A stretch of 64,000 nt of DNA from Archangium sp. (GCA_030695565.1 JAUYRZ010000042.1:1-64000), one strand, 5' to 3'; shown: positions 35,767 to 46,187, counted from the stretch's first letter. Notes: a model not told the origin generated them from the sequence alone. Numbers and translations are program-made.

Positions 35767-36744
35767 GTGACCTTCCCGCCTGACTCGCCGCTGATGGCCT
35801 TCTCCGCCTCAGACCTCGACGCCATCTTCAACGCCTGCACGGCCCGCAGCGCAGCCGCCAACGAAGTCATCTTCTCTGCCGGTGACTCAGGCGATTCGAT
35901 GTTCTTCGTCCTCGAAGGCGAAGCCGTGGCCAAGCTCCACGATGGCCGTTCGGTGAAGACCTACGGCCGAGGCACCTATTTCGGCGAACTCTCCTTCATC
36001 AACCCGGGCCACAAACGCTCCGCGACGTTGGTGACCAGCTCGCCGATGAAGTTGCTGGTGCTGCACCAGGCGATCATTCCCTCGCTCATCACCACGCACC
36101 CCGTCGCGATCTGCACGCTGCTGCAGCACACCTGCGCCTTTCTGGTCGACGCCGAGCGCATGTTGGTGGCCGATCTCCGCCGCCAGAACACCGAGCTGCA
36201 GGACACCATCAAACGCCTCGACATCACCCGCACTCGGCTCACCGAAGAAGAAGACCGCGCCCGCACCGACGCGCTCTCCGGGCTCTCCAATCGGCGCGCG
36301 TTCGACGCCGAGCTGCCCCGCTTCATCGACCGGGCCCATGCCATCGACGCAGGGCTCGCGCTCATCGCGATCGACCTGGATCACTTCAAGCCGGTGAACG
36401 ACACGCTGGGACATCCCGCGGGAGACTTCGTGTTGCGGGAAGTGGGGAAGATTCTGCGCCAGGGCGTGCGCAAGACCGACCTTCCGTGCCGCATCGGCGG
36501 CGATGAGTTCCTGATCATCCTCTCCGACACCACCGAGGCCGGAGCGCGCGCGCGCGCCGAGACGCTGCGTGAGGCGATCGGCTCGTTCCCTCACCCCGGC
36601 AACGATCGAGGCATTCGCGTCACCACCACGATGGGCGGGGCGTTGCTCAAGCCCGGTGAGTCACTCGCTGACTTCGTGCGCCGCGCTGACGAGGCGCTTT
36701 ACGCCGCGAAACGCGCAGGCCGGAACCGCGTCGGCTGGGCCTGA
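35767..36744 (+). CDS. Cyclic-nucleotide-binding diguanylate cyclase
   Basis: A 325-aa fusion. Residues 12-125 form a cNMP-binding domain (EVIFSAGDSGDSMFFVLEGE, YFGELSFINPGHKRSATL, the phosphate-binding cassette being GELSFINPGHKRSA). A coiled-coil linker with TEEEDRARTDALSGLSNRRAF leads to a GGDEF domain with intact GGDEF at 244-248 and an inhibitory RxxD site at 235-238. It should make c-di-GMP in response to cAMP/cGMP binding. The start is GTG at 35767. It faces the end of a Cys-rich lipoprotein gene whose operon contains a nucleotide cyclase. Linking the two is an inference. Confidence 0.88.
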   Translation: MTFPPDSPLMAFSASDLDAIFNACTARSAAANEVIFSAGDSGDSMFFVLEGEAVAKLHDGRSVKTYGRGTYFGELSFINPGHKRSATLVTSSPMKLLVLHQAIIPSLITTHPVAICTLLQHTCAFLVDAERMLVADLRRQNTELQDTIKRLDITRTRLTEEEDRARTDALSGLSNRRAFDAELPRFIDRAHAIDAGLALIAIDLDHFKPVNDTLGHPAGDFVLREVGKILRQGVRKTDLPCRIGGDEFLIILSDTTEAGARARAETLREAIGSFPHPGNDRGIRVTTTMGGALLKPGESLADFVRRADEALYAAKRAGRNRVGWA

Positions 36745-36777
36745 CGGGACGCCCCACCGTCACTTGCCGCACTGCGC

Positions 36778-37953
36778 TCACGAACAGTTGTTGTTCGCGC
36801 ACGGGCCGCCCAGGCAGACGCGCCCACACATGCCGCAGTTCATCGGGTCGTTCACCAGCTGCGCTTCACACCCGTCGGCGAGTGCTCCGTTGCAGTCGGC
36901 GAAGCCTGGAGTACACGCGGTGCGCGAGCAGATCTGATCGTCGCAGACGCGTGTTGCCTGCGGCACCGCGGGGCACACCACACCGCAGCCTCCGCAGTTG
37001 TCGGGGTCGAAGCGCGGGTCGACGCAGATCGTCCCCAACGCACAGAGTGCCAGCGGCGGGGCGCACGCAGACGGAACACAGAGGCCCGAAGCGCAGACCT
37101 CGCCACCTTGGCAAGGCTGGCCGCAGCCGCCGCAGTGACCGGGATCCGTCGCGGTGCGCACGCACTGGCCACCACAGGCCGTCTGCCCGGCAGAGCAGTT
37201 CAACCGGCACTGATTCGCGACGCAGGCCTCACCGGGATTGCACACGTTGCCACACGCGCCGCAGTTCAAGACGTCGTCATCGCCGACACAGGCCGGACCG
37301 CAGGCATGCGTACCGCTGGGGCAGCTGAGCCCCTGACAGCTGCTTTGATCACACAGCCCACCGGGCGGGCAGACGAGCCCGCACCCGCCGCAGTTTTCAG
37401 GGTCCACCCGTGGATCGACGCAGGTGTTTCCACACGCGAGCAGGGGCACCGCGCAGCGCTCCACGCACTGCGCATCGCGGCAGGCCCCATCGGCGCAGTC
37501 TGCGTTGCGGCCACACCCAGCTCCGAGCGGGCAAGGAGCGCAGTCACCGCCGCAGTCGAGATCCGTCTCGCGGCCATTGCGCTGGAGATCGCTGCAACTG
37601 GGCGCAGCGCACCGTTGGCCGATGCAGACCGCGCTCTCGCAGTCAGGGCCGCTGACGCAGGCCCGATTCTCGCTGCAAGGCGCGCAGGTGGCCCCGCAGT
37701 CGACGTCGGTCTCTTCGCCGTTGCGCGTGCCGTCGAGGCACGAGGGGCTCACGCACACCCGCCGCGCGCAGACGACGCTCGTGCAGTCGGAGTGCGTGAG
37801 ACAGGCGAGGGTCAGCTCGCAGGGGGAACACGCGGGGCCACCACAGTCGACGTCGCTCTCTTCGCCGTTGCGCGTGCCGTCGGTGCAGGTGCCATTGCTG
37901 GTCGGTGCGCAGCCCAGGAGCCCGAGCGCGAGGAGGGTCAGCAGCCGTTGCAC
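36778..37953 (-). CDS. Cysteine-rich repeat lipoprotein
   Basis: A 391-aa lipoprotein, lipobox LGLLGC (Cys15). It has three N-terminal repeats of the form DGxRNGxExDVDCGGxCxPC and then about five of the form CVDPRxDPxNCGGCGxxC. Nearly every repeat can make internal disulfides, giving a rigid extended rod at the surface. The GTG at 37953 is selected because it begins the signal peptide; it overlaps the end of the preceding gene by 16 nt. It is a paralogue of that upstream neighbour. No binding partner is evident; adhesion or envelope strengthening are possibilities. Confidence 0.75.
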   Translation of the reverse strand: MQRLLTLLALGLLGCAPTSNGTCTDGTRNGEESDVDCGGPACSPCELTLACLTHSDCTSVVCARRVCVSPSCLDGTRNGEETDVDCGATCAPCSENRACVSGPDCESAVCIGQRCAAPSCSDLQRNGRETDLDCGGDCAPCPLGAGCGRNADCADGACRDAQCVERCAVPLLACGNTCVDPRVDPENCGGCGLVCPPGGLCDQSSCQGLSCPSGTHACGPACVGDDDVLNCGACGNVCNPGEACVANQCRLNCSAGQTACGGQCVRTATDPGHCGGCGQPCQGGEVCASGLCVPSACAPPLALCALGTICVDPRFDPDNCGGCGVVCPAVPQATRVCDDQICSRTACTPGFADCNGALADGCEAQLVNDPMNCGMCGRVCLGGPCANNNCS

Positions 37954-39230
37954 AGGAGCACCCCGTTGCAGTTGGTGATGTTGGGACAACCGAGCGGCAA
38001 GCTGGTCGGCCGCGGAGTCTGCGTCGAGTCGTCGCACAGGCACGAGAGCAGGCCGTCGCACGCTTCGCAGCCGTTACAGGTCGCCTGGTACGAGCCCGCA
38101 GGAATCGGGCCGCAGCACCGGCCGAAGGTGCACGTATCCGTACTGAAACAGGCGCGACCGCAGCGCCCGCAGTTGACGTCGTCGAAGCCGAGGTTCGCTT
38201 CGCAGCCGTCGATCGCCAGGGTGTTGCAGTCTTCGAAGCCCGTCATGCAGGCGCCGATGGCGCAGGCGTTGTTGACGCACGCGCGCGAGCCATTGAGGCG
38301 AGGCGGGCAGGAGGTGACGCAGTCTCCGCAGTGATCGGGATCGTTGCGCGGGTCGACGCAGCTGGGGCCCGGGCCGCTGCACATCAACAGCGGTGCGTTG
38401 CACCCGGCGGTGCACTGCCCCACCACGCAGGTGGACCCCGCTGCGCACGGTTGGTTGCAGCCACCACAGTGCAGGCCATCGAAGTCGAGAGACACGCAGT
38501 CAGCGCCGCACACCACCTGGCCGGGAGGGCACGCCGGTCCGCACAGGCCGCCCACGCAGATTTCTCCCACCGCGCACGGCCGGCCACAGCCGCCGCAGTG
38601 TTGTGCGTTCGAACCCGGGTCGACGCAGGCGCCACCACACGATCGCGTGCCGCCGGCACACGGCGCGCCGCACTGGCCCCCCAGACACACCTCGTTGCTC
38701 GCGCACGGCATGCCGCAGCCTCCGCAGTGAGCTCGATCGAAGCGCGGGTCGACGCAGCTCCCGGCGCAGGCCAGCAGCGGTTGCGGGCACGAACTTCCAC
38801 ACCGTCCGTCGGCGCAGGCGGCGTTCGCGCAGTCCACGTCGCGAACACACGAGAGCCCGGGACCGCACGGCGCGCAGTCGCCGCCGCAGTCGACGTCGGT
38901 CTCGAGGCCATCGCGGACCGTGTTGGTGCACGAAGGCAGCGTTTCCTGGCACGGGGCACAGTCACCACCGCAGTCGACGCCGTCTTCCTGCCCGTTGCGT
39001 GCACCATCGATGCAGCTGCCTTCGACGCAGCGATTCACGGCGCACACCTGGCTCGCGCAGTCTTGATCGACCAGGCAGAGCAGGCCGGTCGAACATCCGC
39101 CGCACTCGCCTCCGCAGTCGAGGTCGGTCTCCCGCCCGTCGAGCTTGCCGTTGGTGCAGTCGGCGGGTTTGACCAGGCACCCGCTGAGGGCCGTGAGGAG
39201 GAACGTGAAGGAGAGCGCGCGTGAGATCAT
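37938..39230 (-). CDS. Cysteine-rich lipoprotein ending in a cyanovirin-N-like segment
   Basis: A 430-aa lipoprotein with lipobox ALSGC (Cys18), three DGxxNGxExDVDCGG repeats and five CVDPxxDxxHCGGCG repeats. Residues 375-430 differ: GSYQATCNGCEACDG, SCLCDD, TSLPLGCPNITNCNG and VLLC follow the pattern of one cyanovirin-N homology (CVNH) repeat (GSYxxTC...LxCxC...TSLxLxxCxNIxNxNGxLxC). CVNH domains bind glycans, often mannose-rich. A full CVNH usually has two such repeats, so this is half. It is coupled by ATGA to the cyclase gene. Confidence 0.75.
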   Translation of the reverse strand: MISRALSFTFLLTALSGCLVKPADCTNGKLDGRETDLDCGGECGGCSTGLLCLVDQDCASQVCAVNRCVEGSCIDGARNGQEDGVDCGGDCAPCQETLPSCTNTVRDGLETDVDCGGDCAPCGPGLSCVRDVDCANAACADGRCGSSCPQPLLACAGSCVDPRFDRAHCGGCGMPCASNEVCLGGQCGAPCAGGTRSCGGACVDPGSNAQHCGGCGRPCAVGEICVGGLCGPACPPGQVVCGADCVSLDFDGLHCGGCNQPCAAGSTCVVGQCTAGCNAPLLMCSGPGPSCVDPRNDPDHCGDCVTSCPPRLNGSRACVNNACAIGACMTGFEDCNTLAIDGCEANLGFDDVNCGRCGRACFSTDTCTFGRCCGPIPAGSYQATCNGCEACDGLLSCLCDDSTQTPRPTSLPLGCPNITNCNGVLLCNGC

Positions 39231-42136
39231 GTCGACACCAGGGCTGACTCCGGCATGGCTGGCTGCGCAGCACTTTCGCGCGCAGCTTCGAGGAACGCCT
39301 TGAGCTCGGGGGGCACCGAGGTGAGGCGGAGATACACGACGTTCGGCCGTACGTTCGCCTTGAGCACCTTGCCGTAGAGATCGCCCGGCCGGAGCGTCTC
39401 CCCGTCGACCACGCGCAGTTGGAGATCGCTCAACGTGGCGAGCTCTTCGTCGACCCGCAGCTCCAGGCCCAGCGCCGAGAGCGCCTCGACGCGCGCGACC
39501 TGCGAGAGCTCGGCGACCTGCTTGTTCTTCACCAGCCCGAAGCGCAGCTCGATGGGCGCGCGCGGCGGCAGCAGCTCTTCGGCAGCCGACTGGAGCGAGA
39601 CGTTGAACGGCGCTGTGACACCCAGCGCCTCGTGAATGGTGAGCGTGCCCTTCACGCCCTTGGGCGAGACCACCTGCGAGGCGCCCAGCACCAGCAGCTC
39701 GCCGCAGCGGGAGCGGGTCGCTTCCGAGATGAGCACCTGGCCACCGACGGTGAACGACTCGACGCGCGAGGTGAGGTTGATGGTCGCGCCGACGATGCCG
39801 TACTTCGCGCGCAGCTCCGAGCCGATGTTGCCCAGGACCACTTCGCCGCTGTGCACGCCGATGCCCATGTCGACGGTGGGCAGCTTCTGCTCGACGTTCC
39901 ACGCGTTGATCGCGGGCATCGCGTTGAGCATCTCGATCGCGCAGGCCACCGCGCGCGCTTCGGTCTGCTCGAGCGGGAGCGGCGCGCCGAACACCACGAG
40001 GATCGCGTCACCGATGAACTCGTCGATGGTGCCGCCGTAGCGCGCGATGATGCGCGTCATCGCCTCGAGGTAGTGGTTGAGCAGCTTCACCACGCCCTCG
40101 GGTTCCATCGAACCGCACATGCTCGTGAAGCCGCGCAGGTCGGTCATCATGATGGTGACGAACTCACGTTTGCCGCCGAGCTTGAGGCCATCGGGCGAGT
40201 CGAGCAGCTGCTGCACGACCTGCTCGGTGAGATAGCGGCCGAAGGTCTGGCGCACGAACTCGCGATCCTTCTCCGCGCGGCCTCGCGCCTGGCGGGCCAC
40301 CCGGGCGCCCAGCACCATGCACACCAGCGCGGTGGCCGCGAGCGCGAGGGTGGGCCCGACGATGGGCACGTAGCGCCCGGCGGTGAAGAGACTGAACGAT
40401 CCACCGAAGGCGGCGAGCATCAAGAGCCCGGTCGCCAGCAGCGCCAGCTCTGCAGAGAGCGTGACCCCGATGCCCGCTGCGAGCAGCGCTGCGCCGAACA
40501 CCAACGCGCCGTTCACCCAGCCCGGCGCGAGGTGGAAGAAGTCGTCGTGGAGCAGGTTCGCGAGCATCGTGGCGTGGTGTTCGACGCCGGGCAGCTCACC
40601 CAACGAGCTGTTGCGAAGATCGGCCGCGGCCAGCGCCGTCGAGCCGACCAGCACGTGTTTGCCCGCGAGCATCGAAGCGTCGCCGCGGTTGCTCTTCACC
40701 GAACCGAAGGTCGTGTCGAAACGAAGGTTCGCCTCGTCGAGCAGCTCGAAGTCGGGCTCGGCGCCAGGGCCGGTCTTCACGTCGAGCTCGAGCACGTGGC
40801 CGGGATCGCTCGAGTACCGCGCCTTGCCGCTCACCGCCGCGCCTTGCACCAGCAGCGCGGGGTCGAGCTCGGCCAACGTCACCACCAGGCCGTCGCGGGT
40901 GATCTTCGTCTGCTCGTCGACCACGAAACGTTGATCGTCTCCGAGGGGGTTGCCTTGCAGCGTGACCATCGAGTCGGAGCGGATGAGCGACCAGATCGAC
41001 ACGTAGCGAAACGGGCCTTCTCCACGGGTGTCGTGCCGGCCCTGATACCGGACCAGGGTGCGGCCCAGTCGATCGATGGGAATGGTTCGTTTGCCGCCGA
41101 GGTCGACGTGCGATCCCGGGAAGATGCGGACCTGAGCGAGTGGCACCCCCAACGTCTGCGCCGCCAGCCGCAGCGAGAGTGACGGCAGCAGCCGCTGGCC
41201 GAGCCGCGCCACCAGCATGGAGTGGCGAAGCACGTCGTCGTCGCCATCGAGCACCACGTTGGCCATGGCGATCGCCCGCGCGTTCTGCGCCACGGGGTCG
41301 ATCACCGGCGTGAGCAACGCATCGCCGCCGATCAGCTCCGCGTAGTCGGGCAGGGTGGCCGCCGAGGCGTGAAAAGGAATGGTGTTGGCGTCGAGGGCCG
41401 CCAGGGCGGCGGGTGACTGCACCGGGGGCGCTTCTCCACTGCCGCGCGCGACCGCGAAGCTGAAGGACACGTTGCCCGCGCGCTTGCTGGCCTCACCGAT
41501 CGCGAGATCCCACTCGGGGTGATCACGGCTGGGGTCGACCAGGGCGACGTCGAACGAGAGGCTCGCGGGTTTCGCCGCGGCCACTGCGTCGATCAGCCGG
41601 GCGTAGTGCACCCGGGCCATCGGCCAACCCAGGTGCGAGATGGTCTCGTCGTCGAGCCCCAGCACCACCACGTCTTCCTGCCGCCGCGCAGACGACAGCT
41701 CTTTCGCGGTGGCGAGCTCGACCTGCGAACGCGCGGGGAAACGGAGGCGGAAGAAGAGATCGACCGTGCGCGTCTCGAGGTAGCCGCCCAGCCGGGTCTT
41801 CTCGACGAGGGCCAGGGTCACGAGGCCCACGAACCCGGCGATGAGCACGGCACGAATGACGCGCGCACCGCGCGCCTTCTCCAGCTTCGCTTCAGCCGCG
41901 TCGACGCGAGCGAGCACCGTGTTGCCGAAGGCGGTGAGCGCTGCCCTGAGCCGGAACAGCGTGGCGACGATCAACAATGCAGCGACGGCCTGCGCCAGCA
42001 ACGAGAGCGCAGGCACGCCGATCCCCAGCGCCTCTGCGAGCGTCGCCGACTCACGAACGAACCAACTCACCGTCGCACCACCGAGGAGCGCCAACGCAGC
42101 GAAGTCGAAGGTGCGCGGCCGCTCCACGGGATTCAC
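39227..42136 (-). CDS. CHASE2-domain class III nucleotide cyclase
   Basis: A 969-aa membrane sensor cyclase. Hydrophobic segments lie near 15-70 and 95-115, then a large extracytoplasmic CHASE2 domain (about 125-500, with VVVLGLDDETISHLGWPMAR and GKHVLVGSTALAAADL), three more membrane helices to about 625, and a class III cyclase domain (about 655-835). Metal-binding Asp666 (MTDLRGFTS) and Asp710 (FIGDAI) are intact, as are Asn787 and Arg791 (NLTSR). The purine-specifying positions are unusual: Glu706 where adenylate cyclases have Lys, and Gly780 where they have Asp/Thr. A roughly 130-aa C-terminal extension follows. Product (cAMP or cGMP) cannot be assigned. Confidence 0.88.
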   Translation of the reverse strand: MNPVERPRTFDFAALALLGGATVSWFVRESATLAEALGIGVPALSLLAQAVAALLIVATLFRLRAALTAFGNTVLARVDAAEAKLEKARGARVIRAVLIAGFVGLVTLALVEKTRLGGYLETRTVDLFFRLRFPARSQVELATAKELSSARRQEDVVVLGLDDETISHLGWPMARVHYARLIDAVAAAKPASLSFDVALVDPSRDHPEWDLAIGEASKRAGNVSFSFAVARGSGEAPPVQSPAALAALDANTIPFHASAATLPDYAELIGGDALLTPVIDPVAQNARAIAMANVVLDGDDDVLRHSMLVARLGQRLLPSLSLRLAAQTLGVPLAQVRIFPGSHVDLGGKRTIPIDRLGRTLVRYQGRHDTRGEGPFRYVSIWSLIRSDSMVTLQGNPLGDDQRFVVDEQTKITRDGLVVTLAELDPALLVQGAAVSGKARYSSDPGHVLELDVKTGPGAEPDFELLDEANLRFDTTFGSVKSNRGDASMLAGKHVLVGSTALAAADLRNSSLGELPGVEHHATMLANLLHDDFFHLAPGWVNGALVFGAALLAAGIGVTLSAELALLATGLLMLAAFGGSFSLFTAGRYVPIVGPTLALAATALVCMVLGARVARQARGRAEKDREFVRQTFGRYLTEQVVQQLLDSPDGLKLGGKREFVTIMMTDLRGFTSMCGSMEPEGVVKLLNHYLEAMTRIIARYGGTIDEFIGDAILVVFGAPLPLEQTEARAVACAIEMLNAMPAINAWNVEQKLPTVDMGIGVHSGEVVLGNIGSELRAKYGIVGATINLTSRVESFTVGGQVLISEATRSRCGELLVLGASQVVSPKGVKGTLTIHEALGVTAPFNVSLQSAAEELLPPRAPIELRFGLVKNKQVAELSQVARVEALSALGLELRVDEELATLSDLQLRVVDGETLRPGDLYGKVLKANVRPNVVYLRLTSVPPELKAFLEAARESAAQPAMPESALVST

Positions 42137-42194: not shown

Positions 42195-43363
42195 TCACTT
42201 GCCCGCCGTGAAGGCGTAGACCTTCGACGACGGGCCAGCGAAGCCTGCTTTGTCGAAGCCGGTGACCCGCCAGAACCACTTGCCCGGCGGGAGCGCCTCA
42301 GGCCACGAGAGCGAAGGATCCGCCACGTTCGTGCTCTTCGCCTCGATCAGGAAGTCCGCGTCGCGCGCCAGCTCGACCTTGTAGGTCGACGCGCCCGTCG
42401 CTGCTTGCCACGCGAGCCTCGCCTCGCCACTCAACGCACCCTTGAGCGGCGAGGTGATCTGCGGAACCGCCGGCAAGGCGGTGGGCGGCGCCACTTCACC
42501 GGTCGCGCTCACCATCGTGCCCTTGCCCGCGGGCACTTCGATCGCGATGGCGTTCGGATCCGTCGAGGAGGAGATCGCGACTGACCCTTCGAGCGTCTCC
42601 AGCCGCGCGCCGTCCTCCTCCACGCCGAAGCGGAACTGCGTGCCACGCACCGAAGCGACCGCCACTTTGCTCGAGGCCTCGAAGCGCGAACCCTGCGTCG
42701 CCTTGCGCACGTCGGCCGTGATGCCGCCCGAGAGCACTTCAATCTTCACCTGGCGGTCTCCACCCGAAGGGAGCGCGAGCGCCGCCATCTTCACCAGCGA
42801 CTCCGGCTTCACCTCGATGCTGCTGCCGTCTTTCAGGTGAATGGTGAGGCGGGCGTTGGGGCCCGTCTTCACCAACTCGTTGACCAGCACGGGCATGCCC
42901 GCCTCGGCCGGCTTGAGTGAAGGTTCATCGGCGCCGAGAAAGGCCGCCCCGCCAGCGGTGGCCACGCGCGCGACCACGTCTTCGGGGGCACGCTCGACGT
43001 AGCGCAGGAAGATGCCGAGCTCTCCCGTGCGGGTCGGCGCGGGTGCGAGCCCGAACACCCGGTTCTTCGGCAGGCCCGCGTCGACGAGCGCGGCGGCGAT
43101 CGCCTTCGCCGCGTTGAGCCCCTTGCCGCTCGCGCGATCGGCATCCGAGACGATGGCGGCGACGGTGACCGCGCGCACCAGGCGGTTGCGATCGATCTCC
43201 TTCACCACGTCGGTCAGACAGGCCTTGCCATCCGCTGTCTTGACCCACGCTTCCGTGAGCGGCTTGCCGGTGCGCACGGTGGCGGCCTCGAGCTTCACGC
43301 CTCCGCACGGGTCGGCTGCGTGAGAGAGGCCTGCGAGGAGCACCAGCACACCTGTGAACGCCT

Positions 43364-43367
<4 letters not shown>
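42195..43367 (-). CDS. Exported FecR-domain protein
   Basis: A 390-aa secreted protein (signal peptide MKAFTGVLVLLAGLSHA). The N-terminal part (about 20-155) is alpha/beta with VRAVTVAAIVSDADRASGKG resembling the OmpA-like or von Willebrand-style small domains, not assigned. The central FecR domain (about 170-275) has VKIEVLSGGITADVRKAT and KVAVASVRGTQFRFGVEEDG, ending GSVAISSSTDPNAIAI. The C-terminus has fibronectin-like strands (YKVELARDADFLIEA, WRVTGFDKAGFAGPSSKVYAF). Without a TonB system, it probably works in cell-wall or matrix contact. It overlaps the OmpA/TSP3 gene by 4 nt. Confidence 0.78.
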
Positions 43368-46081
<2,714 letters not shown>

Positions 46082-46187
46082 GGGCCGCCAAGCGTAGAGG
46101 GTGCCGCTCACGCGGGGAAGACAATGCTGTCGGCCCGCTCCCTGCATTCATTTGCAAGGGCACCCCCACCGGACTTTGCTGAGCACG

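Follow-up and report, generated by a model that had tools for sequence, protein, structure and literature searches.

Does a membrane class III nucleotide cyclase with a CHASE2 domain pass its signal to a neighbouring enzyme that makes cyclic dimeric GMP (c-di-GMP)? The question is raised by a locus of Archangium sp., presumably an uncultured myxobacterium (GCA_030695565.1 JAUYRZ010000042.1:1-64000; this whole stretch of 64,000 nucleotides is called the window below), where such a cyclase is encoded close to a protein that fuses a cyclic nucleoside monophosphate (cNMP)-binding domain to a GGDEF domain. An initial annotation had described the fusion, with an intact GGDEF cyclase and an I-site, at 35767-36744, and had placed the cyclase two genes away on the opposite strand. 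Both descriptions hold: the cyclase gene (39227..42136, minus strand) converges with the plus-strand cNMP–GGDEF gene (35767..36744), and two genes for Cys-rich proteins lie between them. On present evidence, we consider it reasonably probable that the locus encodes a two-messenger relay running from an envelope signal to cyclic GMP (cGMP) and on to c-di-GMP. In the proposed mechanism, the state of the envelope, conveyed by an OmpA-domain protein with thrombospondin type 3 (TSP3) repeats, a FecR-domain protein and the two Cys-rich lipoproteins, would act on the periplasmic CHASE2 domain. The cyclase would make cGMP, as its residues suggest, and cGMP would bind the neighbouring GGDEF protein at its cNMP domain, as the pocket residues suggest. 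Binding would raise diguanylate cyclase activity, by analogy with XC_0249 of Xanthomonas, and the resulting c-di-GMP output would be limited through product inhibition at the I-site.

The 969-residue cyclase contains a CHASE2 domain (2.3e-35) and a class III cyclase domain (4.5e-25) whose catalytic residues are intact, with metal-site Asp residues D666 and D710 and transition-state residues N787 and R791. Its substrate pair, E706 and G780, is the E-G pair of the guanylyl cyclase Cya2 (PMC4215837); in Cya2, the substitution E488K converts the enzyme to an adenylyl cyclase. Among solved structures, Cya2 (PDB 2w01) also comes closest to the catalytic domain in both sequence and fold. E706 is invariant across 17 cyclase homologues. 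When the substrate residues of the genome's own class III cyclases were read one by one, Glu was found in only this one of 17 matches, while 13 others carry Lys with Thr or Asp. The enzyme is accordingly described here as a predicted guanylyl cyclase.

The receptor candidate is a protein of 325 residues, read from a GTG start with an alternative in-frame ATG at 35794. Pfam places a cNMP-binding domain (PF00027, 2.5e-15) at residues 27-108 and a GGDEF domain (PF00990, 1.1e-42) at residues 166-321. The GGDEF active-site motif spans residues 244-248, preceded at the canonical five-residue spacing by the I-site RKTD (residues 235-238); the catalytic and I-site residues (R235/D238) are invariant among 14 homologues. 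Asp220, likewise invariant, lies nine residues past N211 and was placed at the position of PleD D344, which we take to lie nine residues past PleD N335. Ser or Thr at that position is the mark of hybrid enzymes that make cyclic GMP-AMP (PMC9140294), a class that Asp220 disfavours. With GGDEF, RxxD and Asp220 all present, the protein has the residues expected of a canonical I-site diguanylate cyclase, and we predict that it responds to cGMP. It appears to be the only such fusion in the genome, where not one of 48 matches covers both domains and, judged by eye, no cNMP-like sequence lies upstream of the best GGDEF match other than this one.

A pocket without the phosphate-binding Arg would, as the initial annotation put it, have spoken against the relay; the alignment shows the Arg in place, and R84 and E130 are present in 14/14 homologues. 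With a profile, the domain aligned without gaps to PDB 5h5o, which is probably the XC_0249 domain, since its residues agree with the ones that PMC3770947 names; the alpha-C-helix used alone as a query found no structure match. In this alignment E74, L75, H82, R84, S85 and E130 correspond to XC_0249 E90, L91, H98, R100, S101 and E146. A pocket of this kind could in principle bind c-di-GMP rather than a mononucleotide and act as a second site of product feedback, since Clp of Xanthomonas is a cNMP-domain protein that binds c-di-GMP (PMC6637768). We find this hard to credit, given a canonical phosphate-binding cassette that includes E74 and R84, an invariant I-site that already provides product feedback, and the preference of the XC_0249 domain itself for cGMP over c-di-GMP (PMC3770947).

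A precedent for the relay exists in Xanthomonas campestris pv. campestris, where XC_0250/XC_0249 are an experimentally shown cGMP-to-c-di-GMP pair: XC_0250 makes cGMP, and cGMP raises c-di-GMP synthesis by XC_0249 (PMC3770947). The Archangium locus resembles that pair in that genes for a class III cyclase and a cNMP-binding–GGDEF protein are linked, and in the six pocket residues listed above. However, XC_0250 lacks CHASE2 and has a cyclase domain linked to tetratricopeptide repeats (TPR), with non-canonical transition-state residues, whereas the window cyclase is a Cya2-type CHASE2 protein inside an envelope operon. Because the cyclases differ in type and the Asn-Glu pair of the XC_0249 pocket is incomplete here, we describe the locus as one that would work like XC_0250/XC_0249, not as its orthologue. 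Cya2 (Slr0646, Synechocystis) represents the same CHASE2-regulated guanylyl cyclase type with an E-G pair, the product being a prediction in our case, and no linked cNMP–GGDEF gene was described for it in the literature searched. Bd1971 of Bdellovibrio likewise fuses a cNMP domain to a c-di-GMP enzyme, so that a mononucleotide sets c-di-GMP, but its output is the mirror case, an EAL phosphodiesterase that removes c-di-GMP, with cAMP as the likely ligand (PMC6717892). Bacterial cGMP signalling is poorly documented, and the literature yielded one characterised direct step from cGMP to c-di-GMP, in a plant pathogen. The present locus would add a second, phylogenetically distant one with a membrane sensor in front, built on the genome's only cyclase with guanylyl-type residues. 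It would offer a clean system with one source, one or few receptors and one output.

We searched 195 genomes of the phylum; a scan of named genomes gave only four true relatives. Full-length cNMP–GGDEF homologues were found in 14/195 genomes and cyclase orthologues, full-length or cut by contig ends, in 13/195. Both were present in 12 genomes, the cyclase alone in one (G158), the GGDEF gene alone in two (G002 and G007, whose assemblies are ~80% complete) and neither in 180, a co-occurrence with a Fisher value of 2.6e-16 that ignores phylogeny and is not to be read as a probability. In eight genomes from four genera (G000, G003, G005, G018, G023, G030, G159 and G161) the pair lies on one contig, 2.5-9 kb apart, convergent in seven and in tandem in G018. 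In G002, G007 and G162 an operon-type lipoprotein gene adjoins the GGDEF gene at a contig end. In a tree of the cNMP–GGDEF proteins, paralogues unlinked to the operon (B-type) form a clade with support 99/99, while branching among the other copies is largely unresolved. Copies outside this clade are linked to the cyclase operon in all 11 assessable genomes, namely the eight and these three; G009 and G010, undecidable at contig ends, were left out of the count. The initial annotation had asked whether the two genes also co-occur in other myxobacterial genomes; the neighbourhood is indeed conserved in other genera. The B-type paralogues (L034:9528-10499, L038:9467-10435, L039:8224-9192 and L035:14846-15814) carry the same pocket Arg and Glu.

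Proximity in this genome alone is weak evidence: its 8.5 Mb contain 17 class III matches, so a random gene would fall within 2.5 kb of one in ~1% of cases and within 10 kb in ~4%; after the cross-genome comparison, we judge chance proximity unlikely. Background synteny was rejected as well. Among 12 loci compared, no other flank gene family of the window recurred around the locus. In 7/7 other linked genomes, the orthologue of a histidine kinase gene that lies 10 kb from the operon in the window is on another contig. For the SNF2 neighbour, matches were limited to 2/7 of these genomes, again on other contigs. A search for plasmid relatives at E 1e-30 found none. Across several genera the two genes remain linked to a degree that background synteny does not explain, and we regard a selected functional link between them as highly likely.

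Several points count against the relay. In the pocket, the XC_0249 residues N145 and V142 are replaced by Ala (A129) and Leu, so that the N145-E146 pair, conserved in xanthomonad XC_0249 homologues (PMC3770947), keeps only its Glu and the guanine contact is incomplete; Asn occupies this position in 3/14 cNMP–GGDEF homologues. In the cyclase, the Tyr beside the transition-state Arg that aids the guanylyl cyclase activity of Cya2 is Ser. The two genes are convergent and therefore not co-transcribed. In G158 and G006 no GGDEF copy is linked to the cyclase operon; G006 has only a B-type copy, on a different contig from the operon. The draft assemblies are fragmented, and since all carriers belong to one family, co-occurrence partly reflects shared ancestry.

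The same relay might instead use cAMP, or both nucleotides, as its first messenger. CHASE2 cyclases that make cAMP are known from Sinorhizobium (PMC13001267), Bd1971 responds to both cAMP and cGMP (PMC6717892), and a pocket that lacks the Asn145 of XC_0249 would suit this version, the Ser at S85 being one that serves cAMP and cGMP receptors equally. We nevertheless think it improbable in view of the E-G pair, the contrast between an invariant E706 and the Lys of 13 other cyclases in the genome, and the invariance of E130 in the receptor. The residues of cyclase and receptor together narrow the predicted first messenger to cGMP. The relay put forward in the initial annotation is in this sense partly supported: it passed the sequence tests, it has a precedent, and its choice of cAMP or cGMP can be narrowed to the latter. 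The ancestry of the carriers would also be compatible with the absence of any functional link, the two genes being chance neighbours kept by common descent within one family, as the 1-4% chance of proximity in a single genome would allow. Against this stands linkage retained in at least four genera despite scrambled flanks and one change of orientation, and we rate such an explanation as very unlikely.

Because two genomes have the operon without a linked GGDEF gene, the GGDEF arm is best seen as one output of the cyclase and not an obligatory one. In most relatives the cyclase operon extends on the same strand to the gene of a TPR-type protein. This protein carries two cNMP domains, and the Arg is present in the first of its pockets but missing from the second (L027:8009-9148, L141:8338-9588, L140:10111-11427, L142:8465-9739, L138:11774-13084, L030:7800-9137, L025:11035-12303 and L031:9914-11392). 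A second TPR–cNMP gene directly follows the GGDEF gene in four genomes, with Thr in place of the phosphate-binding Arg (L027:9158-10402, L030:6546-7796, L028:1125-2372 and L138:10286-11530). It could be that the operon forms a cGMP signalling unit read mainly by the TPR–cNMP proteins. In that case the GGDEF protein would have the neighbourhood and perhaps the ligand in common with them, but cGMP would not switch its catalysis: the protein would bind the nucleotide without activation, be inhibited by it or act through protein contacts. The extended operons would fit this arrangement, as would G158, which keeps a TPR–cNMP gene with the GGDEF gene absent, and in pilus motility XC_0249 plays a part that does not depend on its activity (PMC3770947). 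Yet the window locus has no TPR–cNMP gene, the nearest matches in the genome (45-46% identity) being on other contigs, and the catalytic and I-site residues of the GGDEF protein do not vary; we consider this arrangement unlikely. The outputs of the cyclase seem exchangeable, given that G158 keeps one receptor type without the other and relatives add to them, and in the window locus the GGDEF protein seems to be the only output.

The envelope end of the relay is suggested by the operon around the cyclase. Its first gene as seen encodes the OmpA/TSP3 protein (43364..46147, minus strand, 927 residues; PF00691 4.5e-21, PF02412 7.4e-27), followed on the same strand by an exported FecR-domain protein (42195..43367, 390 residues; PF04773 2.9e-15), the cyclase, and the Cys-rich lipoproteins CysB (37938..39230, 430 residues, 71 Cys; NCBIfam NF041328 4.3e-37, lipobox LSGC) and CysA (36778..37953, 391 residues, 65 Cys; NF041328 7.2e-52, lipobox LLGC). 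For CysA a GTG start at 37953 is proposed, with possible upstream starts reaching 38061. Both lipoproteins are MXAN_6577-like Cys-rich proteins, and they are assigned to the cyclase operon because they share its strand and overlap the cyclase gene and each other. The five genes are tightly packed, with ATGA stop/start overlaps between OmpA and FecR and between the cyclase and CysB, and every contig of sufficient length keeps the order OmpA–FecR–cyclase–CysB–CysA, the one exception being G006, where CysA was not found. From this packing and conserved order we infer a single transcript; the cNMP–GGDEF gene ends ~35 bp from CysA. As the operon names candidate envelope partners, the input of CHASE2 domains becomes approachable. 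A periplasmic FecR-domain protein is also paired with a CHASE2 sensor in the BiofilmReg operon of Burkholderia, but there the CHASE2 protein is not a nucleotide cyclase; it is a histidine kinase, accompanied by a response regulator (PMC5192318). The best NCBIfam match of the OmpA/TSP3 protein is the outer membrane exchange protein TraB (2.3e-61), yet at 207 of the 700 bits of the cut-off; this match and the two Cys-rich lipoproteins recall myxobacterial surface recognition systems.

Besides its CHASE2 and catalytic domains, the cyclase carries at its C-terminus a third domain, predicted to adopt a PilZ fold, at residues 853-957 or thereabouts (~105 residues; window 39260-39580). Its AlphaFold2 model has pLDDT mostly >90 and matches PilZ domains, several of them c-di-GMP-bound, with a VIA Z of up to 11.5; Foldseek gave 3.8e-4 at probability 1.0, and Pfam detected PilZ in 5/17 members of the cyclase family (best 0.0013). 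The C-terminal extension of Cya2, in comparison, has been called structurally uncharacterised, while the window tail is modelled as PilZ. The c-di-GMP motif RxxxR occurs in 0/17 cyclase sequences, and the orthologues have AxSxxG instead of [D/N]xSxxG. With these motifs missing, canonical c-di-GMP binding by the tail is unlikely and we do not file it as a c-di-GMP receptor, so feedback by that route is disfavoured; the tail may have a structural role or bind another ligand.

A wider circuit can be drawn, though we offer it only as a tentative possibility: the OmpA/TSP3 protein with its TraB-like regions, FecR and the Cys-rich surface lipoproteins would sense the envelope or cell contact and gate the guanylyl cyclase, cGMP would be read by the cNMP–GGDEF protein and in relatives by TPR–cNMP proteins too, and the PilZ-fold tail would exert feedback on the synthesis of cGMP. 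If true, such a pathway from envelope sensor to c-di-GMP, complete in one locus and with PilZ feedback, would amount to a bacterial cGMP circuit that is dedicated and self-contained and whose outputs can be exchanged. A PilZ-fold tail lacking the motifs is also found on cyclases of other families of the phylum, some beside response regulators. In another family of the order, G036 (L120:6522-14536) has a Cya2-type cyclase that is more distantly related and shares the Glu, in a similar gene set with FecR-like, OmpA/TSP3-like and Cys-rich proteins and without the GGDEF gene. G037 (L123:8865-10901) encodes a CHASE2-type cyclase whose substrate position holds Lys and, behind it on the same strand, a stand-alone cNMP-binding protein.

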